From assembly GCA_903871805.1 (NCBI GenBank), contig CAIQIE010000248.1:1-64000 (forward strand): 64,000 nucleotides of DNA, given 5' to 3'. This DNA is from an uncultured Planctomycetaceae bacterium (lineage in GTDB: Bacteria; Planctomycetota; Planctomycetia; Planctomycetales; Planctomycetaceae). Shown in pieces: positions 43,466-62,736 of the stretch. The notes beneath the pieces are model-generated. The model did not search any database. It was not told the DNA's origin and saw nothing but the letters and a program-made list of their open reading frames with translations. Both the position numbers and the translations under genes were made by a program. The stretch's first letter is position 1; each line of letters begins with the position of its first letter.

Positions 43466-45625
43466 TCATTGCTCTCTGCCCCTCGTAGTTCCGGCCAGTT
43501 TCCGCTTCAGTCGACTCTTCAGCAGTAACGCATTACCGACGACCGTCAGATCACTCAGTCCCATGGCGACGGCGGCCCAGAGCGGTCCGTGATTACCCGT
43601 TAGCCCAAAGGCTGCAAGCGGGATCGCAGCGACGTTGTAAAGAAAGGCAAAAAATAAGTTCTGCTGAATTGTCCTCAGAGTCATTTGTGATAACAGAAAC
43701 AAATCTGCCACCGCGCTGACGCGGTCCCCCGGAATCACAACACCCGCCGCTTCAATCGCCACACGCGTGCCAGAGGCCATGGCAACTCCCAATCCTGACT
43801 CAGCAAGTGCGGCCGCGTCATTCAGGCCGTCACCCACCATAACCACATTGTGTCCCAGGCCCCGGATCGTCTGCATCTTGGATTCCGGGGTTGCATCTGC
43901 GGCCACATCCTCTGCCGGAATTCCAAGGCTCTTCGCAATGGATATCGCCGTCGCGTATCGGTCTCCCGTCAGCATCGACACTTTGACGTTCAGCATCCGC
44001 AAACGCTGAATTGCCTGCGCCGCATCCGGACGCACTGTGTCAGTGAGGGTGAGAAATGCGGCCGTTTGATCATCAATCAAAACCACTGATGTGGATTGAT
44101 GATGTCTCTCAACGCGAATCCGGTGGCCCTCAATTTGCCCTGTGACACCCGTTCCCGGGATGGCGGCAAATTGCAGAACCTCTGGAATTGTCAGACCGCG
44201 ACCCTGCGCCGCTCGTACAATCGCTCCGGCCAGCGGGTGCTCTGACGGGGCTTCCACTCCCGCCGCCAGACGCAGCACTTCACTTTCGAAAAATCCGGGC
44301 TGAGTCTCCACCTTTTCCAGTTCCGGTTTTCCGTGCGTCAGAGTTCCTGTTTTGTCGAATACCACTTGTTTTGAACGCCCGATGCGTTCCAGTGTCTCTG
44401 CGTCTTTGATCAGAATTCCATGCAGTCCGGCAGCACCTGTGCCAACCATGACCGCAATGGGTGTCGCAAGGCCCAATGCACAGGGGCAGGAGATGATCAG
44501 GACTGTGACGGCCGCTATGATCCCTGCAGAACCGTTTCCTGCCAGCCACCAGACTGCCGCTGTCGATATCGCAATGATCAGGACTGTGGGGACAAAAATG
44601 GCGGAAATCTGGTCCGCAAGTTTCTGGATTGGCGCGCGACTTGTCTGCGCCCGCTCCACAAGCTCTGCAATTCTGCGCACTGTTGTCTGTCGCCCTGATA
44701 CCGTCGTCTGAATGACCAGTCTGCCAGTGGTATTCATGGAACCAGCAATGACGGTCTCGCCAGGACTTCGACGCACGGGTGTGGATTCACCCGTGACAAT
44801 CGACTCATCAATATCGGACTGGCCCTCCAGAACCAGTCCATCCACCGCAATTCGTGCACCTGGGCGAATCAGCAGTCTCTGGCCCGCGATGATCTCCTCG
44901 CTGGGAACCGTAATCGTGCTTCCATCCAGTCGCAGAAGTTCGGTGGTTTCCGGCTGCATGTGCAGCAGTTCTCGTACGGCTGTTCCCGCCTTTGCCGTAG
45001 CTCGTGCTTCCATCCAGTGACCGACACTCACAATTCCCAGCAGGCCGGCGGCCTCAGCAAAGTAGGTAGGTTCGTTCCTGCTGAAGACCAGGATGATCGT
45101 GGAGTAGCAAAACGCGGTAGAGGCCCCCAAAGAAATCAGTGTGTCCATGTTTGTTGTCCTGCGACGGGCCGCCTGCCATGCAGAAGCAAAGAACCCCGGA
45201 CCGACAATCGCCAGAATCACAAGGGCTCCGAAAAACATCAGCCACCCCATCCATTCCGGATGCCAGTGCATCGCCGACATTGTCCAGTGGAAAATCTCCA
45301 GCGGCAGCCAGCAGGCTACACCCATAATGGCCCGATATCTCCAGGTCTTTTCCAGGGCCTGCTGCTGCCGTTCCACATTGCTGCGGAGATCAGAACTGCT
45401 GACCAGTTCCGCACCGAACCCCTGCTGCTTTACAAGGCCAATGATGGCTTCGGGGCTGAGCGCTGGACTGGAAACAACGGCGGTCCCCGAGGTGATACTG
45501 ACGGCCGCAGAAGAAATCCGGGGATTGGAGAGCAGGGCCCGTTGCAGCGATGCTGCACAGCCCGCACAGGTCATGCCGGTGACGCGGAACGTCTTCGGGG
45601 AAGTTGTGGTTTCCTGCGAGAGCAT
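43466..45625 (-). CDS. copper-type heavy-metal-translocating P-type ATPase
   Basis: GMTCAGCAASLQRAL metal-binding domain; CPCALGLATPIA; VFDKTGTLTHGKPEL; MVGDGLNDAAALAES. Confidence 0.95.
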   Translation of the reverse strand: MLSQETTTSPKTFRVTGMTCAGCAASLQRALLSNPRISSAAVSITSGTAVVSSPALSPEAIIGLVKQQGFGAELVSSSDLRSNVERQQQALEKTWRYRAIMGVACWLPLEIFHWTMSAMHWHPEWMGWLMFFGALVILAIVGPGFFASAWQAARRRTTNMDTLISLGASTAFCYSTIILVFSRNEPTYFAEAAGLLGIVSVGHWMEARATAKAGTAVRELLHMQPETTELLRLDGSTITVPSEEIIAGQRLLIRPGARIAVDGLVLEGQSDIDESIVTGESTPVRRSPGETVIAGSMNTTGRLVIQTTVSGRQTTVRRIAELVERAQTSRAPIQKLADQISAIFVPTVLIIAISTAAVWWLAGNGSAGIIAAVTVLIISCPCALGLATPIAVMVGTGAAGLHGILIKDAETLERIGRSKQVVFDKTGTLTHGKPELEKVETQPGFFESEVLRLAAGVEAPSEHPLAGAIVRAAQGRGLTIPEVLQFAAIPGTGVTGQIEGHRIRVERHHQSTSVVLIDDQTAAFLTLTDTVRPDAAQAIQRLRMLNVKVSMLTGDRYATAISIAKSLGIPAEDVAADATPESKMQTIRGLGHNVVMVGDGLNDAAALAESGLGVAMASGTRVAIEAAGVVIPGDRVSAVADLFLLSQMTLRTIQQNLFFAFLYNVAAIPLAAFGLTGNHGPLWAAVAMGLSDLTVVGNALLLKSRLKRKLAGTTRGREQ

Positions 45626-49007: not shown

Positions 49008-49508
49008 TCAGGAACTCCCTGATGGCTGAATACTTGCAGCACCGGTCAGTCGGTCAAGGACCACCAGAAGTTGGTTTCCCTGACCATCGGCGAGCATCAG
49101 ACGGGCTGTCGAACTTGATCCATCTGGCCGAAAGATCAGCAGCATGTCCTGCGTTTTCACGGATTCAGCGTCCTCGTCAGATTGGCAACGGATTCCCTCT
49201 GGAAACTGGAACTGGAACTTATCAAGGTCCGGTTGATTCAGCGGGGTGCGACGACCCTCTGTACCTGATGAATACAGCCATAGTGCCCAGGTTTCTCCTG
49301 ACTGAATACTCGCAAGGCGAGTTTCAGCAATTTGCTGCTGCAGCAAAGCAACTGACCGTTCAATGGGCAATCGCTGCTGCCAGCGACGCAGTGACGGTAC
49401 CGCAATGACCAGGAGAACAGTCATGAGTCCGAGAACCAGAAGAAGCTCCAGCAGCGAAAATCCTGAGAAGCGCTGGACGGGTTCTGTTTTGGAGGCTTTC
49501 GAACGCAT
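49008..49508 (-). CDS. GspH-like pseudopilin
   Basis: Prepilin motif RFSGFSLLELLLVLGLMTVLLVIAVPSLRRW. Confidence 0.8.
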   Translation of the reverse strand: MRSKASKTEPVQRFSGFSLLELLLVLGLMTVLLVIAVPSLRRWQQRLPIERSVALLQQQIAETRLASIQSGETWALWLYSSGTEGRRTPLNQPDLDKFQFQFPEGIRCQSDEDAESVKTQDMLLIFRPDGSSSTARLMLADGQGNQLLVVLDRLTGAASIQPSGSS

Positions 49509-49975
49509 TACTGCCAGTTCCCGATGTCATCCTGATTGCCATGAATGTGGTCCGGTCCCGCAGAGCTGACATCGAAACTGTCCACGTTCTTTGTGCCCGG
49601 AGAGCGGTAGGCAAGGGGAGTTCCCCAGGGGTCAACAGGTTCCTTGTCCAGATATGGACCTTTCCAGGCCGGGTCGCGTCCGGAAGGAGCTTTGAGCAGG
49701 GCCTGCAGTCCCTGAGCGCTTGTCGGAAAGTCTCCTGCATGATCCAGGGAATAAAGTTTCAGAGCATCTGACAGTCCCGACAGACTGGCCTTCGCGACAT
49801 CGTTGTAGGCTTCCTTCTGACGCCCCAGCAGACGCGGCACGACCATCGCCATAATGACTCCGAGGATGCCAAGAACCAGCAGGACCTCCATCAGTGTGAA
49901 TGCCGATCGCTGAAAATGTCTGCTGTCTTTGGTATTGGTATTTGGGGCCAACTGGGCCGGATTTTGGAGCTTCAT
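49508..49975 (-). CDS. gspG: type II secretion major pseudopilin GspG
   Basis: RSAFTLMEVLLVLGILGVIMAMVVPRLLGRQKEAYNDVAKASLSGLSDALKLYSLDHAGDFPTSAQGLQALLKAPSG...WKGPYLDKEPVDPWGTPLAYRSPG. Confidence 0.95.
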   Translation of the reverse strand: MKLQNPAQLAPNTNTKDSRHFQRSAFTLMEVLLVLGILGVIMAMVVPRLLGRQKEAYNDVAKASLSGLSDALKLYSLDHAGDFPTSAQGLQALLKAPSGRDPAWKGPYLDKEPVDPWGTPLAYRSPGTKNVDSFDVSSAGPDHIHGNQDDIGNWQ

Positions 49976-50089: not shown

Positions 50090-51286
50090 TCATCCAAGTC
50101 CGGTTCCTTCAAAGACCGGCATCAGCAAAGCCACAACCATAAATCCCACAACAACTGCCATGATCAGCATCATGATGGGTTCCAGCAGTCGCAGTAGAAT
50201 GTCAAGACGCTGTTGTGCTCGGGATTCCAGTTTGTCGGCAAGTTTGAGCAGCACTGAGTCCAGACGATTGGCCTGTTCCGCAACCGCGATCATTTCCAGG
50301 ACATCCACTGGAAAATGCCCGCTGGCTGCCAGCGGCCCCGCCAGATTTTTTCCGGAAGAAATACTTTCTGCGGCAACCGCGATGGTTTCGCTCAGCACCT
50401 GATTACCAGTCGCGTGTCTGGCAATTTCCAGCGATCGCAGCATGGGAACACCATTCTGAAGCAGGGAACCCAACACACGACAGAATCGAGCGATGGCGAC
50501 TGAACGGACAACCGGTCCAATCCCACGGATTCGCATCAGCAATTGATCGATATGCCTCGCCAGTTTTTTTTCAGGAATGCGAACTTTGATGAAGAAAATG
50601 GCAGCGAACAGAACCGGCGGGAACAGCAGACCCCATGATTTCAGAAAGTCACTGATTCCAAGTAGTGCTCGAGTAGGCCATGGAAGTCTTCCCGATTGCT
50701 GCAGTGAGTCGAAGAGCGGCTGAAATTTCGGAACAAAGAAGATCAGCATGCCGGTGACAACAAGGCTGGCGACAATTGCCAATAGCAACGGGTAGGCAGC
50801 CGCACTTCGGATTCGCCCCCGGATCTCTTCCTGACGTTCGCGCACTGCGGCCAGACGCCGAAGTGATTCTTCAAGAAAACCGCCTTCTTCACCCGCCTGG
50901 ACCATGCTGACGTCCAGAGAGCTGAATACAGAAGGACGGCTGGTCATGGCCGTCGCAAGACTGGTTCCGTCGGCCACCTGCGTTGCGATAGCGCTAAGGG
51001 TTGCACGCAGTGTCTGATCTGAGGATTGCTCAGCCATCACCTGAAGAGCACGCAGCAAAGGTACGCCCGTCTCCAACTGATCAGACAGCAGGCTGTAGGC
51101 AACAGACATTGCTGCTGACGACACGCGTTCCGTTCGTGCACTGCCAGAGGATTGCTCCGCGAGTGATACTGGCATCAGCATCTGCCCAGCCAGTACCTGC
51201 AGCGCATCAGAACGAGACGCTGCCAGAAGTGTTCCCGGAACCTTCAGGCCGTCATGAGTTACTGCGATGTAGCGAAACTGTGGCAT
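50090..51286 (-). CDS. gspF: type II secretion inner-membrane platform protein GspF
   Basis: MPQFRYIAVTHDGLKVPGTLLA; VQAGEEGGFLEESLRRLA; three TM segments; LEPIMMLIMAVVVGFMVVALLMPVFEG. Confidence 0.92.
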   Translation of the reverse strand: MPQFRYIAVTHDGLKVPGTLLAASRSDALQVLAGQMLMPVSLAEQSSGSARTERVSSAAMSVAYSLLSDQLETGVPLLRALQVMAEQSSDQTLRATLSAIATQVADGTSLATAMTSRPSVFSSLDVSMVQAGEEGGFLEESLRRLAAVRERQEEIRGRIRSAAAYPLLLAIVASLVVTGMLIFFVPKFQPLFDSLQQSGRLPWPTRALLGISDFLKSWGLLFPPVLFAAIFFIKVRIPEKKLARHIDQLLMRIRGIGPVVRSVAIARFCRVLGSLLQNGVPMLRSLEIARHATGNQVLSETIAVAAESISSGKNLAGPLAASGHFPVDVLEMIAVAEQANRLDSVLLKLADKLESRAQQRLDILLRLLEPIMMLIMAVVVGFMVVALLMPVFEGTGLG

Positions 51287-51597
51287 CGAAAAATCTGCTG
51301 TACGAAACCGAGGTTTCCGTGAGACGAAACACTCCTGGCTGACAAACCCCCTCACTGCTTTGAATCAGACTTCCACAACCCAGTGCGACGTTTTCTGACA
51401 ATTTCAAGCCGTTCAGGCAGATCGGAGGTCTCCGGTCTATTTTTGTGCAGGGACTATGACGCACTATGCGTTGCCGTGATTTCGTGTGCATTGCGACAGT
51501 CAGGAAGTTCCGGTTAGCAATTTTCCGCAGGTTTCCCGGCAATCAAAGATGAAACTGCGAATTCTCGAAGGAGAACCCCGCTGTCGTGGGAAATAAA

Positions 51598-51627
51598 ACG
51601 AGTTGTTGCATTTCTGCAACAACTCGT
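51598..51627 (-). terminator. rho-independent-like terminator hairpin downstream of the SCO1-like gene
   Basis: ACGAGTTGTTGCA-TTTC-TGCAACAACTCGT, 13-bp perfect stem; on the minus strand it is followed by CGTTTTATTTCC. Confidence 0.75.
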
Positions 51628-51695: not shown

Positions 51696-52751
51696 TCAGG
51701 GCTGGGACCCAACGACTTTCTCCGCGTCCGCGTCAGCCTTGAAGGAGGCCTCGTCTGTCTGTGACTTTGAAGCAGGTGTCGATGCTGCTTTCTCGCAACA
51801 CGTCCCTTTGGACTTCCCACTGCAGCAACTTGCCGCCTTCGATTGACTGCAGCACTCCCCCGACTTTGCTCCACTGCAGCAACCTTCCGTCGTCGCAGCG
51901 ATGGCATTTTCATAGCCAGCCGGGGAATTTTTGACACCTTCCAGGGCTGCTGGGGTGAATCCACTGTCCAATGCCAGTCGCAGTCCAAATCGCTGCCGTT
52001 CCGTTGACCCTGCAATCCGCAGGCAGGTTTCGTGCAGTTCCTGAATCGGAAGGCCGGTGGGAGAGGAGGCCCAGCGATTGTATCGATCAGCACCCATGAC
52101 GATCATCGCGGCATGCTGTGTGGGGTCGGCGTCCACGACCGGGTCAAGGTCATACATTCCGAGAGCACGACGCACCTGTTCGACATCATCCTTCGCTCCG
52201 GTGCAGAAATGAATATCGGCAAGGGCGTTGTCATTCAGCCCTCCGACGGACTTTGCGTACTCCATCAGCGTTTCGGGACTGTCATTCTCTGCATCCAGAG
52301 TGATACAAACGAAGTGGATGTTATCGCGACCAAACTGGGTGGTCAGTGACTCACGGATTTTCAGCATCTTCGAGATTGTGCCCGGGCACGTTCCCTGACA
52401 ACGCGTGTAGAACATCGCAAAGCATGTTGTCCGATCTCGTACAAGATCCGACTTAAATCGCAGTTTCTGTCCGTAATGATTGGTTAGCACGACATCCGGA
52501 AATTCGTCGGAAACTCTTTTCCCAGTCACTTCGGACATGGTGCCGCCGCTGAGTTCTGCGGCGCGTTCCCTGAGATTTTCGTATTGTTTCTCAATGAGCT
52601 TTTCGTCGCGATCCAGCCACTGTGTCAGTTGCTGCTGCTCGTTGAGTTCGCGACTTTCGGTTTCTGCACCGGCATGACCTGTTGTCCCGATGTAGACGCC
52701 AACGCCAAGAATGCAGGTGATAACAGCCAGTTCAAGTCGAAGGAAACTCAT
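51696..52751 (-). CDS. SCO1/SenC family protein with C-terminal CC-repeat tail
   Basis: CFAMFYTRCQGTCPGTISKMLKI (CxxxC), HFVCITLDAENDSPETLMEYAKSVG; tail EGCCSGAKSGECCSQSKAASCCSGKSKGTCCEK. Confidence 0.85.
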   Translation of the reverse strand: MSFLRLELAVITCILGVGVYIGTTGHAGAETESRELNEQQQLTQWLDRDEKLIEKQYENLRERAAELSGGTMSEVTGKRVSDEFPDVVLTNHYGQKLRFKSDLVRDRTTCFAMFYTRCQGTCPGTISKMLKIRESLTTQFGRDNIHFVCITLDAENDSPETLMEYAKSVGGLNDNALADIHFCTGAKDDVEQVRRALGMYDLDPVVDADPTQHAAMIVMGADRYNRWASSPTGLPIQELHETCLRIAGSTERQRFGLRLALDSGFTPAALEGVKNSPAGYENAIAATTEGCCSGAKSGECCSQSKAASCCSGKSKGTCCEKAASTPASKSQTDEASFKADADAEKVVGSQP

Positions 52752-52939
52752 CTGTTCTGCTCTGTTTTGAGGAGTGTTTTCTGGAAGCGTGATGACTTAA
52801 CGTGATTGCAATGCAGGACGGTCAAAAGCACGCCTGTGATCTCTTGTGAGAGGCGGCTGTTTAAAGTACCAATAACGTGGGCCGAGTGTCCAAAAAGGGC
52901 CGCAGCGGATTGCTGCGGCCCGGTAATGCCACCATCGGA

Positions 52940-54742
52940 TTATGGGAAACTCTGCTGTACCGGGGTTGGTGCCGCGGTGGGAGTGACCCGAGGGTCAACA
53001 TTGCACATCATTCGCATGTCTTCGTGAGCATTGTTATGGCAATGGAATACGAATGGACCTTTGAATGTACGGAATCGCATCAGTAATTCAACCACACCGT
53101 TTCCGGTGAGATAGGTCACATCGTTCTTGAAAGCGAAATCAACCGGAGGCGGACCACCGTTGAAACTGATCAGCTGATGGGACTCGACATGGATATGAAT
53201 CGGATGCCACCAGCCGCCGCTGTTGTTGCGAAGAATCCACTTCTCAACAGCACCAATTGTCGGTGTTGCATCCGCTCGGGTCGGATCATAGAACTTCTGA
53301 TTGATCTGCCATGCTCCGTTACGCCGCTGGAACTCAAAAGTACGAGTCGCAACAGCATCTGCCGGATTGAGCTTTTCGTGCGGACGCAACGTCGTGTTGA
53401 GATCCACGGTTGGATTATTTGGCTGAGGTGTACCTTCGACGATAAACTTCAGATATCGATCCGGAGTGGCGAGGTGCACTCGCTGCGTGAAGGAGCCATT
53501 CGGACCACGACCATTATCCTGAGACAGGATGTTCTCCAGATAAAGTTCGTTCGGGGCATCCGTAAAGTCGATGATTACGTCGGCCCTGTTGGCCGGACTC
53601 ATCAGCATTGTCTGTTCTGAGATCGGTTTTGGATATAGCCACGTATCCTTGGCGATTCGCATGAAAGGACTCCCATCGCTGAGACGCCATTCCGTGAACC
53701 GTGCATTAAACGCCGTCAGTATGCGAAAACGGTACTTGCGACGCTGAACCTTCAGAAACGGCTGAGCAACGCCATTCACCAGCCAGATGTCTCCCAGGTG
53801 CCCGTTAAAATCCAGCGGGTTAAACGCCAGAGTACCGTCGGCATTCAGCTTGCGATCCTGGAGGCACAGCGGAATGTCAAACTCACCCGAGGGCAGAACA
53901 TTATCATCGATGAGTTTTTGTTCCAGATCGTCAACTGTGATACAGAACCCACACATCCCACGCCAGACGTTGTGGTCCGTGACATCCAGCCCGTGGTCGT
54001 GGTACCACATTGTGGATGGACTTTCAGCGAAGTCCGGTTGACCATTCAGCATCGGCACTGAAAGAGGATAGTAATAGTCACGAGCACGTCCGGGAAGAAC
54101 GTAGAAGTGCGGCGAGCCATCAGCGTGTGACGGTGTGTGTGCACCATGCATGTGAATCGAAGTCTCAACCGTCATGTCATTCACAAAACGAACGACAATC
54201 GGCTGCCCGACGCGGGATCTGAAAGTCGGCCCGGGCATCAAACCGTCATACGTGAAAATCGGAGTCTTCACGCCGGGGATAAACTCGTGAATCGACTCTT
54301 TCATGTGAATTTCATAGTACTTCTCTGGCCCGACTTCATACCACGCCTGTCGAGGTTCGTTGGCAGTTCGACGATCGAAGTATTCTGGGGCTACACCATG
54401 GAAAACATCGCCGACGGTCCACGGAGGTGTTCCTACACTGACAGGCACTGCGTCCTGAGCCCGAACCAGCGGTAGTGCGAAGGGAGTGTAGGTGAAACCG
54501 CCGGAAACTGTGCGAGTCGTTGGAGCCGGAGTAGGCTTTGGTGCCGGTGTCACAGGCGGCTTTACGGGCACGCCTGGCTTTGGCGCCTGATTGCCAGCGG
54601 CAGGTGTGGGTTTCGGCAGGGAGGGAGGGGCCGTTGGTTTGGGAGGAGCCGCCATCGCAATGGCGGCGCTCCCGACAACGATTGCCGCAGCAGACTTTTT
54701 GAGGACATTCCGCCGCGACGCGGCAGATCGTTTGGACTTCAT
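52940..54742 (-). CDS. multicopper oxidase (CotA/bilirubin-oxidase-like) with Tat-type signal and Pro-rich linker
   Basis: SRRNVLKKSAAAIVVGSAAIAMAAPP; Cu motifs SIHMHGAH, WYHDHGLD, HPIHIHVESH, FHCHNNAHEDMRMM. Confidence 0.93.
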   Translation of the reverse strand: MKSKRSAASRRNVLKKSAAAIVVGSAAIAMAAPPKPTAPPSLPKPTPAAGNQAPKPGVPVKPPVTPAPKPTPAPTTRTVSGGFTYTPFALPLVRAQDAVPVSVGTPPWTVGDVFHGVAPEYFDRRTANEPRQAWYEVGPEKYYEIHMKESIHEFIPGVKTPIFTYDGLMPGPTFRSRVGQPIVVRFVNDMTVETSIHMHGAHTPSHADGSPHFYVLPGRARDYYYPLSVPMLNGQPDFAESPSTMWYHDHGLDVTDHNVWRGMCGFCITVDDLEQKLIDDNVLPSGEFDIPLCLQDRKLNADGTLAFNPLDFNGHLGDIWLVNGVAQPFLKVQRRKYRFRILTAFNARFTEWRLSDGSPFMRIAKDTWLYPKPISEQTMLMSPANRADVIIDFTDAPNELYLENILSQDNGRGPNGSFTQRVHLATPDRYLKFIVEGTPQPNNPTVDLNTTLRPHEKLNPADAVATRTFEFQRRNGAWQINQKFYDPTRADATPTIGAVEKWILRNNSGGWWHPIHIHVESHQLISFNGGPPPVDFAFKNDVTYLTGNGVVELLMRFRTFKGPFVFHCHNNAHEDMRMMCNVDPRVTPTAAPTPVQQSFP

Positions 54743-55483
54743 TTTTGGGCTCCTTCGCTTCAACAAGCGACAACGTTTAACTAGAACTTGAACCGCAGGT
54801 TGAAGTTCTGCAACCGCAGGAGCCATACCATGATCCGATGCCGACATCATAATTCCTGTGTCTGGATCGTTTTGATATTTACGGGTCCGGTGATGCGGGA
54901 TGTTCTGATTATGACGCCTTGCTTGTTCATGGAAGTACCCACGAGACGGTAGAAAACGAACAGCCTATGGGAGAATTTGCGGGTGAAATAATTAACCTTA
55001 AGATCCATAATTCCTCAGATGTGAACAGATTGCTTTATCAGAGTGAAATAAAAGTGAACGATCCGCACCATTGGTTTGGACTAGTTTCTGGCAGACGTGA
55101 GCCCGTAATAAAACGGCAAACCTTTGTGTGGTCATGACACCTCTTAACAGGAAAAAGACGGAATTTGCGGCGATTTAGGCCACTAACAACGCGTCTCGTG
55201 GGCAGAAGCCCAACTAAGTTACCCTGTGTCGGCCTGATGTTTTACCCTTGCGACGATTGCATCTCCTGATCCGATTGTAGTGTTTATGTCGCTGACGAAA
55301 TCAATGAAACCGGTGGTGTCGCGATCAGAACGCGTATCGTGAGAGGGGCAAAAAATGCACACGCAGTGCCGCGTACTACGGTGTGTTTCATGTCCAGACT
55401 GGACGATCAGGTTACGCCGCTTACCTGCCGATTTGCCGCACTGATTCCGTCGGGCAGGCTCTTTTGTTTCCACTGCTTACCGC

Positions 55484-55548: not shown

Positions 55549-57378
55549 TCACGGATAACTGGCCTGAATCAGTTGCGGTGAAGTGGTGGGAATGACACGT
55601 GGATCCACGGTGAACATCATACGCATGTCTTCGTGATCCACGTTGTGGCAGTGAAAGACGAATGGTCCTTTGAATGTCCGGAACTTCATCAGCAGATGCA
55701 CCTCGCTGCCACCATCCAGAATATGGATGTCGCTTTTGAAACGGTCATGCAGTGGCGGTACCTGTCCGTTGTAGCTGATAATCTGGTGTGATTCGAGGTG
55801 TATGTGGATGGGATGCCACCATCCACCGCTGCCGTTGCGACAGATCCAGCGTTCGACGGATCCCAGTGTGGGTGTTGCATTCGCGAGCGTTGGATCAAAA
55901 AATCGCTGATTAATCTGCCAGGCACCGTTCCGGCGATGGAATTCGAAGACACGCGTAACGACTGCATCACTGGCCTGCAGTGTGTTGTGTGGTCTTAGGG
56001 CCGTTCCTGCAATGACTGATGCGCTGTTGGGCTGCTTTTCGCCTTCGACGATAAACTTGAGATATCTTTCCGGGACGTCAAGCCGCCCTGGATTGTCCAG
56101 AGAACCCTCGGGCTTTCGGCCATTCACCTGAGCAAGGATATTCTCAAGGTAGAGCTCATTCGGGGCATTTGTGAAGTCAATGACTACGTCAGCACGCTGA
56201 CCGGAACTCAGCATAATTCTGGATTGTTCAATGGCCTGTGGATAGAGCCAACTGTCCTTTCCAATACGGGTGAAAGGCTGACCATTGCTCAATTGCACTT
56301 CCAGAAATCGAGCATTACAGCCATTCAGGATACGAAGACGGTATTTGCGTCGCTCCACTTTCAGAAATGGCTGAGCTTTGCCGTTAACGACCCAGATATT
56401 TCCCAGCGTGCCGTCGTGGTCCAGAGGATCGAACCACAGCGTCCCGTCCGGGTTCAGTCGACGGTCCTGCAGACAGATGGGGATATCATATTGACCTGCT
56501 GGCAGGACGTTGGATGCGATAAGGTCGTCCTCCAGTGCATCTGTACAGATTGCCGCTCCGCAAAGCCCCCTCCAGATGTTGCCCGCTGCGATATCCATCC
56601 CGTGGTCGTGGTACCAGAGTGTGGACGGACTTTCTGTGAAGTCGGGCTGACCATTGAGCATAGGCACGGTGCTGGGATAAAAATAATCACGCGCTCGTCC
56701 GGGAAGAACGTAAAACGTTGGATATCCATCGGAATGCGCGGGCGTATGACCACCATGCAGATGAACTGACGTCTCGATTGAGAGGTCGTTCCAGAACCGG
56801 ACCACTGCGGGTTGCCCGATCCGAAATCGCAGAGTTGGCCCGGGATAAGTCCCGTTGTATCCGTAAATTGGAGTTTTGACACCCGGAATAATTTCATGAA
56901 CTCCGGCCTGCATGCGGACTTCATAGAATTTTGGGGGCATCGATTCGTAGAAATTCAAATCAGGTCGCTCGGCGACTCGACGATCAAAGTACTCTGGCGC
57001 AATTCCGTGGAAGACATTTCCCGGCTGAAATTGTGCCTCTGTAACGGTCAATGGCTGCAAAGTTGCCGGCACAGGCAGGGGCACCGTAAACGGTGTGAAT
57101 TTGAATGGAACCGGTGGCAATGTATTGACAGGTGCCGGTGCAGGCGCGGGCTGTGGAGTTGGGCGTACTGCCGGGGTTGTGGGCTTTGGAACTGACGCCG
57201 ACGCCGGAGTTCTTACGGGCTTCGGGGCGACCGTTTTCGCTGGTGGCGATGTTGGTTTTTGAAGGGGCGACTGCTGGGCCGCAAGTGCGGCACCTGATGC
57301 AGTCGCGGCGGCAGCGACTGTCCGCAGAATACGACGTCTGGTTTGCGGTTGTGGTCCGTGATTTTTGTGTTTGCTCAT
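55549..57378 (-). CDS. second multicopper oxidase, paralogue of 52940..54742
   Basis: TRRRILRTVAAAATASGAALAAQ Tat-like signal; SVHLHGGH, WYHDHGMD, HPIHIHLESH, FHCHNVDHEDMRMM. Confidence 0.93.
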   Translation of the reverse strand: MSKHKNHGPQPQTRRRILRTVAAAATASGAALAAQQSPLQKPTSPPAKTVAPKPVRTPASASVPKPTTPAVRPTPQPAPAPAPVNTLPPVPFKFTPFTVPLPVPATLQPLTVTEAQFQPGNVFHGIAPEYFDRRVAERPDLNFYESMPPKFYEVRMQAGVHEIIPGVKTPIYGYNGTYPGPTLRFRIGQPAVVRFWNDLSIETSVHLHGGHTPAHSDGYPTFYVLPGRARDYFYPSTVPMLNGQPDFTESPSTLWYHDHGMDIAAGNIWRGLCGAAICTDALEDDLIASNVLPAGQYDIPICLQDRRLNPDGTLWFDPLDHDGTLGNIWVVNGKAQPFLKVERRKYRLRILNGCNARFLEVQLSNGQPFTRIGKDSWLYPQAIEQSRIMLSSGQRADVVIDFTNAPNELYLENILAQVNGRKPEGSLDNPGRLDVPERYLKFIVEGEKQPNSASVIAGTALRPHNTLQASDAVVTRVFEFHRRNGAWQINQRFFDPTLANATPTLGSVERWICRNGSGGWWHPIHIHLESHQIISYNGQVPPLHDRFKSDIHILDGGSEVHLLMKFRTFKGPFVFHCHNVDHEDMRMMFTVDPRVIPTTSPQLIQASYP

Positions 57379-58699: not shown

Positions 58700-59533
58700 A
58701 TGAAGATGAATGGCAAACGGTGCTGCGATGGTCGATTTTCATTAAGTGATGCCGCAGCACGCGGAATGACTTTAATGGAACTGATGCTGGCCCTCGCACT
58801 AACCGGGATCCTGATGAGTTCCATTGCGGTCGCGTTGAATTTGTTCTGGAAATATCGCACGCTTTCGCAGGAGAATACTTCCGTTTCCGGAATTCGGCGG
58901 GGAATTTACGAGGATATAGCGGTTGATCTGCGTGCGGTTCTTCGGCCCACAGCACCCTTGAAAAGGTCAGTGCTGAAGCGAAGCAACAGTGGCGATTCCG
59001 GCCTGCAGGATTTCTCAGGCGGCAATGAACTGGTCCTGGATTACACAGAGATGCTGACTATTCCGGACCAGGCGATAGCAGACCACCCTGTGAGTTTTCT
59101 GGGAGAAGCCGGATGGTTTGCCGTGCTTTCACGGGCCACCAGCTACAGATTCCCGAATACTCAGGCTTACGGCAGTGAGTTTGGTCACATTGTCTGGTCC
59201 AATGGCCAGGCGTTGCGTGGCGTGTTCAGCCTGCACGATGAGCAGTCTGTTTCTCTGTCGCTGAGTCAGGCTCAGAATGCCCCATCGCTGATTCGAAGGA
59301 TTGTGCCCTTCACCTCTAACGCATCATCTTCAGATCCGGAGATCACCGAACTACTGATTTCCAGTCGTGTTCGATCGATTTCGTTCCGTTACCTGGATGG
59401 TGCTAAGTGGGTGACTCGCTGGAACAGCGAAGAGTTACAGGGTTTGCCGGTGGCGGTGGAGTGTCGTCTGGAGTGGACGGATGGTTCGCCGATGGATGTT
59501 TTTGTAATCAATCTTCCGGCAGCGGAGCAGTGA
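58700..59533 (+). CDS. GspJ-like minor pseudopilin
   Basis: ARGMTLMELMLALALTGILMSSIAVALNLFWKYR prepilin motif; position between GspI-like and GspK-like genes. Confidence 0.75.
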   Translation: MKMNGKRCCDGRFSLSDAAARGMTLMELMLALALTGILMSSIAVALNLFWKYRTLSQENTSVSGIRRGIYEDIAVDLRAVLRPTAPLKRSVLKRSNSGDSGLQDFSGGNELVLDYTEMLTIPDQAIADHPVSFLGEAGWFAVLSRATSYRFPNTQAYGSEFGHIVWSNGQALRGVFSLHDEQSVSLSLSQAQNAPSLIRRIVPFTSNASSSDPEITELLISSRVRSISFRYLDGAKWVTRWNSEELQGLPVAVECRLEWTDGSPMDVFVINLPAAEQ

Positions 59534-59534
59534 T

Positions 59535-61142
59535 ATGAGCAGAGTTCTGTCTCGACAGACAACCGGTAGTTCCAGGCAACGGACCGGATTCGTACTGTTG
59601 CTGGTTCTGGTGGTGGTGACGCTGCTGAGTTTTGCCGTGTATTCCTTTTCCAGCCTGATGGTGACAGAGTTTGGTGCGGCGAAGACCAGTCTGCAGCATT
59701 TGAAGCGTCGCCAACTGGCGGAGTCTGCTCTGGAGTTGGCGATCGCCGATCTTCGCAGTCCTCCGAAGGTAGCGCGGAAAACGACGGTGACGATTCCTCT
59801 TGCAGATGGAGAGTCCGGAATGATGACGCTGCTGCAGCGGTTGCCATCCCGTGACGGAGTGAAATCGGAAATTGGCTGGTTGAATGAATCCTCGAAGCTT
59901 AACCTGCGAACTCTGCCGCTGAAGTCATCCCGACGGCCCCTGGCACGGCGCAGACTCACTATGATTCCGGGAATGACGGTTCCTCTGGCCGACTCCATTC
60001 TTGACTGGATCGATGAAGACAATGAGCCATCCGAATTTGGAGTGGAAGCAGAATGGTATCTGTCACAGGTACAGCCTCGGGTGCCGAGAAACGGCATCTT
60101 TGAGGATCTGAGGGAATTGCTGCTTGTACGCGGGATGACTGCGGAACTGATGTTTGGTGAAGACCAGAACGCCAATGGGATTCTGGATCCTGAGGAAGAC
60201 GATGGTACTGAAACTGCGCCAAATGACAATCGGGATGGGGTACTGCAGTCGGGTCTGTCAGAGTACCTGACTCTGGTCAGTGCAGAGTCTGTCATGGATG
60301 AAAAAGGGGATCCGAAAATTCATCTGAATTCCAAAGAACTGGCACAAATGTATGACATGATTCTCGCGCGACTTGGATCAGAGGCAGCACTGTATATCGT
60401 TGCTGGACGGCTGCACGGGATCTACTGGCTGGATGATATCAGGCCGGATGAAGGGGAAGACCGGGAACTCAGACTTCGGGAACGTCTTGAGCAGGCTGAT
60501 GAGCGTCTGCGAATGCAGCTGGGAATTCACAAGCAGTCAAAGAAGAACATTGCGGCTCACGAATACTCACGTGGCGGACTGGTACTGGATGGAAATCCAT
60601 CGTTTGAGTTTCGTTCAATTGCAGACCTGTTTGGCGGGCAGGTCCGTGCGACGGTGGATGGCAAGGACCGTGTGATTCAGTCACCCTGGGCTGCGGATAC
60701 CGCAACGATTGGGCGTATGCTGCCGGAACTGGCGGAGATTTTTTCGATCTCAACGGACAGAGCCGTCTACGGTCGCATCGATATCAACTCGGCTTCCGAA
60801 GCTGTACTGGCATCGATTCCCGGAGTCAGTGAGTCCCTGGCTCGATCGATTCGCGGACTACAGCCAAAACCGGAGGAGCGCCGGAAGAAGGGGTTTCAAT
60901 CCGTTGCATGGATTTTGAGTCGAGGACTGGTAACAACCGGAGAATTTCGAGCGATGGCTCCGTATATGACTGTTGGCGGTGACGTGTACAGCGGGATTGC
61001 CATCGGTCAGATTCAGGGTGAACGACCTGTTGCCGCAATTCGTTTTTCTGTCGACTGCACTGCCACTGTTCATCGTATGCTGCTGTTTCAGGATCTTCCG
61101 ATATTTTCCGCAGAGCAGACAGGGCTGAGTTGGCAGAAGTAG
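59535..61142 (+). CDS. GspK-like type II secretion protein
   Basis: RQRTGFVLLLVLVVVTLLSFAVYSFSSLM N-terminus; GWLNESSKLNLRTL; GRIDINSASEAVLASIPGVSESLARSI helix-hairpin-helix. Confidence 0.85.
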   Translation: MSRVLSRQTTGSSRQRTGFVLLLVLVVVTLLSFAVYSFSSLMVTEFGAAKTSLQHLKRRQLAESALELAIADLRSPPKVARKTTVTIPLADGESGMMTLLQRLPSRDGVKSEIGWLNESSKLNLRTLPLKSSRRPLARRRLTMIPGMTVPLADSILDWIDEDNEPSEFGVEAEWYLSQVQPRVPRNGIFEDLRELLLVRGMTAELMFGEDQNANGILDPEEDDGTETAPNDNRDGVLQSGLSEYLTLVSAESVMDEKGDPKIHLNSKELAQMYDMILARLGSEAALYIVAGRLHGIYWLDDIRPDEGEDRELRLRERLEQADERLRMQLGIHKQSKKNIAAHEYSRGGLVLDGNPSFEFRSIADLFGGQVRATVDGKDRVIQSPWAADTATIGRMLPELAEIFSISTDRAVYGRIDINSASEAVLASIPGVSESLARSIRGLQPKPEERRKKGFQSVAWILSRGLVTTGEFRAMAPYMTVGGDVYSGIAIGQIQGERPVAAIRFSVDCTATVHRMLLFQDLPIFSAEQTGLSWQK

Positions 61143-61152
61143 GTTACCCGCG

Positions 61153-62736
61153 TTATTCGCCTTCGGTATCCAGTGGGCATACTCGAATCAGTTCATCCAT
61201 GGACGTCTCTCCGGCAAGCACTCGTTGCCATCCGTTCTGTCGCAGAGTCTGCATGCCCTGACGCACAGCTTCTGTACGGATTTCTGCCGAGTCTGACTGC
61301 TGCATACAAAGGGCACGGATACGACTGCTGGTCATCAGTAATTCGAAAATGGCGATTCGGCCTGAGTAACCTGATCCACGACATTCCCGGCATCCGGTGG
61401 CATTCCACAGAGTGTGTGCCGGAGGCAGTTGACAGTCTTCAGGAATCTGATCCGGGGAAGGTAAGTATTCAAGACGACAGTGCCTGCAGAGTCTTCGGAC
61501 AAGGCGCTGCGCCAAAACCCCCTGAAGCGTACTGGCGACCAGATACGGTTCAATTCCCATATCGATCAGTCGCGTGAAAGTACCGGCCGCATCATTTGTG
61601 TGGATCGTGCTGAAGACCAAATGCCCTGTCATCGACGCCTGGATGGCACTGGCGGCCGTTTCGGCATCACGAACTTCGCCGATCAGAACCACATCCGGGT
61701 CGTGTCGCAGAACGCTGCGCAAGCCCGCGGCAAATGTCAGCCCGATTTGTGACTGCACCTGAATCTGACTGATCTGCTTCAGATTGTACTCCACAGGATC
61801 CTCGATCGTAATGATCTTCAGATCGGGGCGACGAATATCGCACAGGGAACTGTAGAGCGTTGTTGTTTTTCCGCTTCCCGTAGGACCTGTCACCAGAATC
61901 AGCCCGTGTGGTCGGCGAATCAAACTCTGCCAGTCTTTGCGAAGCTCTTCAGGGAAACGAACGGAATCGAGGCTGAGCGAGGCTCTTGACTTATCCAGCA
62001 GTCGCATCACGACACCTTCGCCGTGAAGCATGGGAATCACCGAAACTCGAATATCCACCTCATGTCCGCGAACTGTCAGCCGAATCCGCCCGTCCTGGGG
62101 CAGACGTTTTTCGGCAATGTTCATCTTTGCCATAATCTTGAGGCGACTGACGATGGCAGCCCGAAATCTTTGAATCTCGGCCGGCATTGGCTGAATCTGA
62201 AGCATGCCATCAACACGAAACCTGACGGCAAGGTCAGCCTCCTCGGGTTCAATATGAATATCGCTTGCCTTCTGCTCGATGGCCTCAAGGATCAGTTCGT
62301 TCACCAGCTTGACGACCGACGAGGCTTGCGATGCATCGCCGATCTCGTCACCTGCGGCAGCCTGCAGTGAGTCGATTTCCTCCTTCGACATCGCGACAAG
62401 TTCATGCACCGTTCCTCCGCCTACACCCAGCGCGTTTTTCAAATGTCGCTGGATCTGTTCCTCCTGAGCCAGTATGGGGTCCAAATAAAGCCCCGTGCGA
62501 ACGGTCAGGTCCTGGAGTGCTTCAAGGTTTAACGGATCTGCGACGGCAACCTGAACTCTATTTCCGTTTCGATGCAGTGGCAGAATTTTCTCTCGAAAGA
62601 GATCCTGCCCGGGAAACAACTGGACGAGTGCCGAGTCAGCGGTGAACTGCTCGAGGTCGACGAACTCCATCCCAAAGCGTGCGGCAAGTCTTCCCAGCGG
62701 ACTCAGGCTTTCAGATTCTGTGACGGCGGAAATCAC
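61153..62736 (-). CDS. gspE: type II secretion/pilus assembly ATPase GspE
   Basis: GLILVTGPTGSGKTTTLYSSLCDIRRPDLKIITIEDPVEYNLKQISQIQVQSQIGLTFAAGLRSVLRHDPDVVLIGEVRDAETAASAIQASMTGHLVFSTIHTNDAAGTFTRL. Confidence 0.97.
   Translation of the reverse strand: MISAVTESESLSPLGRLAARFGMEFVDLEQFTADSALVQLFPGQDLFREKILPLHRNGNRVQVAVADPLNLEALQDLTVRTGLYLDPILAQEEQIQRHLKNALGVGGGTVHELVAMSKEEIDSLQAAAGDEIGDASQASSVVKLVNELILEAIEQKASDIHIEPEEADLAVRFRVDGMLQIQPMPAEIQRFRAAIVSRLKIMAKMNIAEKRLPQDGRIRLTVRGHEVDIRVSVIPMLHGEGVVMRLLDKSRASLSLDSVRFPEELRKDWQSLIRRPHGLILVTGPTGSGKTTTLYSSLCDIRRPDLKIITIEDPVEYNLKQISQIQVQSQIGLTFAAGLRSVLRHDPDVVLIGEVRDAETAASAIQASMTGHLVFSTIHTNDAAGTFTRLIDMGIEPYLVASTLQGVLAQRLVRRLCRHCRLEYLPSPDQIPEDCQLPPAHTLWNATGCRECRGSGYSGRIAIFELLMTSSRIRALCMQQSDSAEIRTEAVRQGMQTLRQNGWQRVLAGETSMDELIRVCPLDTEGE

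Follow-up and report, generated by a model that had tools for sequence, protein, structure and literature searches.

The question raised by this locus is what a series of paired cysteines contributes to a SCO1/SenC-family protein whose gene adjoins those of two multicopper oxidases (MCOs). The loading of laccase-type multicopper oxidases with their four copper ions outside the cytoplasm is poorly understood, and the window (the whole stretch of 64,000 nucleotides that was analysed, from an uncultured Planctomycetaceae bacterium) places the genes of several candidate participants side by side.

The SCO protein and its cysteine-pair tail

Combining open reading frame analysis, Pfam, AlphaFold2 and Foldseek, we assigned a protein of 351 amino acids (51696..52751, minus strand) to the SCO1/SenC family. 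The only Pfam family found in this reading frame is PF02630 (SCO1-SenC; residues 89-215, E 2.2e-13, 50.7 bits for a cut-off of 22.8), which bears out the "SCO1-like" label of the first-pass annotation, and no NCBIfam model matched the protein. The CxxxC copper motif which that annotation also reported is present as CQGTC (residues 118-122; 52386..52400, minus strand), and both C118 and C122 are invariant in a 20-row alignment, as is His213 (in TQHAAMIVMG; 52113..52115, minus strand), the third copper ligand of SCO proteins. The AlphaFold2 model presents a thioredoxin-like fold with a core mostly at a pLDDT of at least 90, and the top Foldseek matches are all SCO proteins, with BsSco, human SCO1 and Bradyrhizobium ScoI among the first. 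A membrane helix is predicted at the N-terminus (residues 3-24, AlphaFold2) and, judging from the topology of SCO, the Cys-pair tail should lie on the periplasmic side. Anchoring as a lipoprotein was considered and rejected, the N-terminus presenting no clear lipobox by eye.

Residues 272-351 are predicted to be disordered (pLDDT <50 in AlphaFold2), and this segment contains eight cysteines, arranged as four Cys-Cys pairs between residues 291 and 319 (51795..51881, minus strand). The pairs occupy residues 291-292, 300-301, 309-310 and 318-319, so that the exact nine-residue spacing described initially is confirmed, running from nucleotide 51881 down to 51795; four pairs with this period did not arise in any of 200,000 shuffles of the residues of this protein. 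At the DNA level, TRF detected no tandem repeat, and a looser scan found three 25-nt copies, 64-84% alike, in a register of 27. Duplication is the probable origin of the repeat, whose units have since diverged. Recent DNA slippage was rejected as the whole explanation of the tail given the negative TRF result, though diverged 27-nt units exist.

The tail in related genomes

A search for orthologues in 99 related genomes and in genome contigs found five at the same locus, with 60-74% identity, in metagenome-assembled genomes (MAGs) which are labelled Planctomycetaceae or Planctomyces and which we call congeneric. The tail is kept in all five, with respectively 4, 5, 3, 3 and 3 pairs separated by gaps of 7, 8 or 11 residues, while at a seventh locus (G015), which is more distant, the tail is weaker and contains two CC. 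Because five congeneric orthologues carry it at the same locus, the tail is real coding sequence. The first-pass annotation had proposed looking for homologues with such tails and considered that their absence from all close homologues would speak against its reading; the tails are there. The importance it gave to the exact spacing, on the other hand, has to be abandoned: since the orthologues vary in the number and the spacing of the pairs, the nine-residue period is peculiar to the genome of the window and what is conserved is the pairs themselves. Within the two closest pairs of orthologues, the positions of Cys were kept in 14/14 cases versus 31/51 for the other positions of the tail (Fisher p 0.003).

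Outside these loci, a profile built from the tails and run against 398 genomes from 186 genera of the class matched only the four tailed SCO genes present in the sample, one per genome; these four are members of the profile, and the search therefore shows restriction to them and not discovery. Within these 398 genomes, the tail as recognized from its sequence is limited to the SCO proteins of the window's genus. Of the other searches, an earlier tail search of the 398 class genomes returned three spurious reading frames, a single-sequence search of 170 genomes of the family gave, besides the orthologue G003, only weak matches without the tail pattern, and a scan of the window's own genome for CC tails on other proteins gave mostly out-of-frame or chance matches. 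A literature search for SCO proteins with a Cys-rich extension found nothing similar. All the tailed loci belong to one clade of one genus, and for this reason the associations described below for the tail are not independent events.

Genomic context and linkage to multicopper oxidases

The two multicopper oxidases that had been noticed next to SCO, MCO1 (52940..54850, minus strand) and MCO2 (55549..57378, minus strand), are both of the bilirubin oxidase/CotA type. Their T1, T2 and T3 copper ligand motifs are complete, HxHG, WYHDH, HPxHxH and HCHx3Hx4M being found in each, and they present the Tat-like signals SRRNVLK and RRRILR, respectively. The initial description had overlooked that this MCO2-MCO1-SCO cassette is embedded in a type II secretion system (T2SS) gene cluster. 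The genes of T2SS J and K are divergent and lie on its upstream side (58700..61142, plus strand; PF11612 and PF21687), next to that of the ATPase E (61153..62736, minus strand; PF00437), and the gene of protein F follows the cassette directly downstream (50090..51355, minus strand; PF00482), with that of the major pseudopilin G beyond it (49508..49975, minus strand; PF08334). The Cu P-type ATPase also mentioned at first was confirmed about 6 kb from SCO, at the downstream end of the T2SS cluster (43466..45625, minus strand): it is a copper-type P1B ATPase with HMA CxxC and CPC motifs, and matches TIGR01511 with 527 bits for a cut-off of 397. Gene order is identical in the orthologue loci wherever the contig reaches far enough, and the ATPase is syntenic in several relatives, one of them without the cassette. 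Elsewhere in the window's assembly, at the end of a contig, there is a second T2SS E/K pair (L139, G000:C105:2122-5384), whose K is about 74% identical to that of the window; it is either a paralogous cluster or an assembly admixture.

Terminator-like hairpins are found on both sides of the SCO gene. The one between MCO1 and SCO (52897..52921, minus strand) has a counterpart at the corresponding place in 6/6 tailed loci, and the one after SCO, before T2SS F (51598..51627, minus strand), is conserved in position in the same 6/6 loci with compensatory changes. This conservation suggests terminators or an element setting the expression ratio, and also that the three genes of the cassette and T2SS F do not form one simple transcript; it may be that SCO has a promoter of its own or is less strongly expressed than the MCOs.

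The association with MCOs extends well beyond the tailed proteins. SCO genes of the window's subfamily adjoin an MCO gene in 18 of 19 loci, the remaining one being cut by the end of its contig, and the same holds for 25/25 further loci sampled up to the phylum level, other families included. Nearly all of these 19 and 25 MCO-linked loci are without tail, and because MCO-paired SCOs are tailless elsewhere in the genus and the phylum, the tail is not needed for the work of SCO with MCOs in general. It was found in 6/6 loci where an MCO2-MCO1-SCO cassette is embedded in the T2SS cluster and weakly in the seventh, an MCO2-SCO locus; tailed SCOs were found only where the MCO-SCO cassette is embedded in this way. 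In the tree, the T2SS-linked SCOs all fall to one side of a branch whose support is modest (73/71), with long branches.

Three other T2SS loci, in G002, G013 and G009, contain a SCO-like gene that neighbours J and/or F but has no adjoining MCO on the available contigs. These genes (L141:10399-11292, plus strand; L140:3-878, minus strand; L146:1409-2479, plus strand, respectively) are degenerate: their proteins have lost the CC tail as well as the CxxxC and the His, and each of the three genomes has, at another place, an MCO-SCO pair that is intact. At the T2SS locus, the copper site and the tail thus go together with the presence of an MCO, although the events are few. As a separate observation, other planctomycete families have two-domain SCO proteins of 410-480 amino acids (L172-L177, L179, L180), mostly with no neighbouring MCO in the stretch fetched.

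Comparison with known copper proteins

The SCO of the window shares with the characterized SCO1/SenC chaperones (human SCO1, BsSco, S. lividans Sco and Bradyrhizobium ScoI) the Pfam family, the thioredoxin-like fold, the CxxxC with its distal His and the N-terminal anchor. It differs from them by its link to laccase-type MCOs instead of cytochrome oxidase genes and by the addition of a long disordered Cys-pair tail. There are precedents in the literature: more than one target has been suggested for S. lividans Sco, described as a copper metallochaperone (PMC3603459), and SCO1/SenC genes cluster with predicted extracellular MCOs in Geobacter, Fe(II) oxidisers and Sideroxydans, the Geobacter MCO OmpB being reportedly secreted by an atypical T2SS (PMC5566968). 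The clusters of these bacteria include MofC-like cytochromes, and the passages of the same article that describe them mention no Cys tail; by contrast, the planctomycete MCOs are of the CotA/bilirubin-oxidase type and are encoded within the T2SS gene cluster itself.

Like copper metallothioneins (MymT, SmtA and others), the tail is short and unstructured, with a high content of Cys (20-24%) and an abundance of Ser, Gly and Lys. Unlike them, it is not a small independent protein but part of a 351-residue SCO protein, appended to a chaperone domain and predicted to be periplasmic, and its putative metal ligands come as CC pairs only. Nor does it resemble the Csp copper storage proteins, which are four-helix bundles lined with Cys, as it is predicted to be disordered by AlphaFold2. 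CopG/CutG, chaperones of laccase-type MCOs (PMC7558416), are likewise periplasmic copper proteins with a thioredoxin fold, MCO-linked genes and adjacent cysteines; CopG binds its copper cluster through a CxCC inside the fold (PMC7558416), whereas the CC pairs considered here lie in a disordered tail on a SCO fold.

A possible role for the tail and its alternatives

The initial idea of an appended module on a SCO protein beside MCOs stands in part: the orthologues, the synteny, the correlated loss and the predicted disorder all speak for a Cys-pair appendage, and its regular spacing is not conserved. We regard it as quite probable that this SCO serves the adjacent MCOs, to which it would deliver copper, and we lean slightly towards Cu(I) binding by the tail. 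The combined reading, that of a periplasmic copper chaperone for these oxidases equipped with a strap that holds Cu(I) in the manner of a metallothionein, we put at about even chances. According to this proposal, the protein would be anchored in the membrane, face the periplasm and be dedicated to the two Tat-exported oxidases of CotA/bilirubin-oxidase type. The P1B ATPase encoded in the T2SS cluster would bring copper into the periplasm, and the SCO domain would hand it off through its CxxxC and His. The disordered tail with its three to five Cys-Cys pairs would act as a tethered thiolate strap that captures several Cu(I) and keeps them close to the chaperone site; from this store, an apo-oxidase in need of four copper ions could be loaded rapidly, or when free copper is scarce. 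Secretion of the loaded oxidases by the T2SS whose gene cluster holds the cassette would probably follow, an export step which we consider evenly balanced. The predicted disorder fits a flexible strap. Several points count against the proposal: MCO-paired SCOs elsewhere do without the tail, the conserved hairpins suggest more than one simple transcript, and the tailed loci, all of one clade, are not independent; in addition, the tail lacks the CxC or CxxC motifs typical of many metallothioneins, and in an oxidising periplasm its thiols may be disulfide-bonded.

Reactivity of the same thiols towards each other leads to other explanations. Vicinal Cys pairs could form a redox module giving electrons to the CxxxC of SCO, to incoming Cu(II), to cysteines of the MCOs or to more than one of these, with no storage of copper. 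The conservation of the pairs as dipeptides is in keeping with this, as is the thiol-disulfide role that has been ascribed to bacterial SCO proteins besides the copper role (PMC3603459); we nevertheless consider it unlikely, as the same source presents S. lividans Sco as a copper metallochaperone and not a thiol reductase, the surrounding genes include no evident reductase partner, and a varying number and spacing of pairs would be less fitting for an active site than for a sink. Disulfides could also link the chaperone or its cargo to the T2SS machinery or to a Cys-rich, proteinaceous planctomycete envelope. A proteinaceous cell-wall layer has been reported in planctomycetes (PMC3035269) and the confinement of the tail to T2SS-embedded loci would agree with such a link, which we judge improbable given that SCO already has a predicted membrane anchor and that no other exported protein of the sampled genomes has the tail.

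Finally, the tail might be a dispensable low-complexity expansion without function. The variation in number and spacing of the pairs and the related 27-nt units in the window's genome, which point to duplication, are what one would expect of it. The Cys pairs are however kept across six orthologues, even at an identity of about 60%, as other residues of the tail change, and the loci that no longer have the MCOs have lost both the tail and the copper site, which leaves this explanation, too, with little probability.

Returning to the copper-holding strap, a wider and more tentative extension would see in this single locus an assembly and export line comprising a copper ATPase, a SCO to which a metallothionein-like store of Cu(I) is fused, the two oxidases of laccase type and the T2SS exporting them, the strap being tunable and its number of Cys pairs evolving with demand. 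An MCO-linked SCO with a thiol strap, together with natural relatives without tail or copper site, allows the idea of a copper store attached to the chaperone to be put directly to the test.

Predicted selenoprotein SCOs in other planctomycete families

While comparing MCO-linked SCOs, we observed in 19 genomes from four other planctomycete families (L152-L165, L167-L171) an in-frame TGA located exactly at the second copper Cys, turning CxxxC into CxxxU. An example is TTCSGI-U-P in L156:1468-2157 (plus strand), with the TGA at 1771. In most of the 19 genomes a SECIS-like stem-loop of the type GAACCUGGUCAAGGUUC is predicted to fold, starting 17 nt after the start of the TGA; the conservation of this hairpin may be partly due to the encoded protein sequence. 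The one read-through protein tested was accepted by Pfam as SCO1-SenC. In 18/19 genomes SelA scores above its cut-off and tRNA-Sec is matched strongly (at least 62 bits), the exception being an 84% complete MAG, and SelA is absent from the seven genomes sampled in the window's genus, whose SCO has CxxxC. The main text of two reviews on prokaryotic selenoproteins, of 2022 and 2026, does not mention SCO proteins. From these sequence features, the MCO-linked SCOs of the four families look like selenoproteins, and such predicted CxxxU proteins would place selenium in the site of a copper chaperone.
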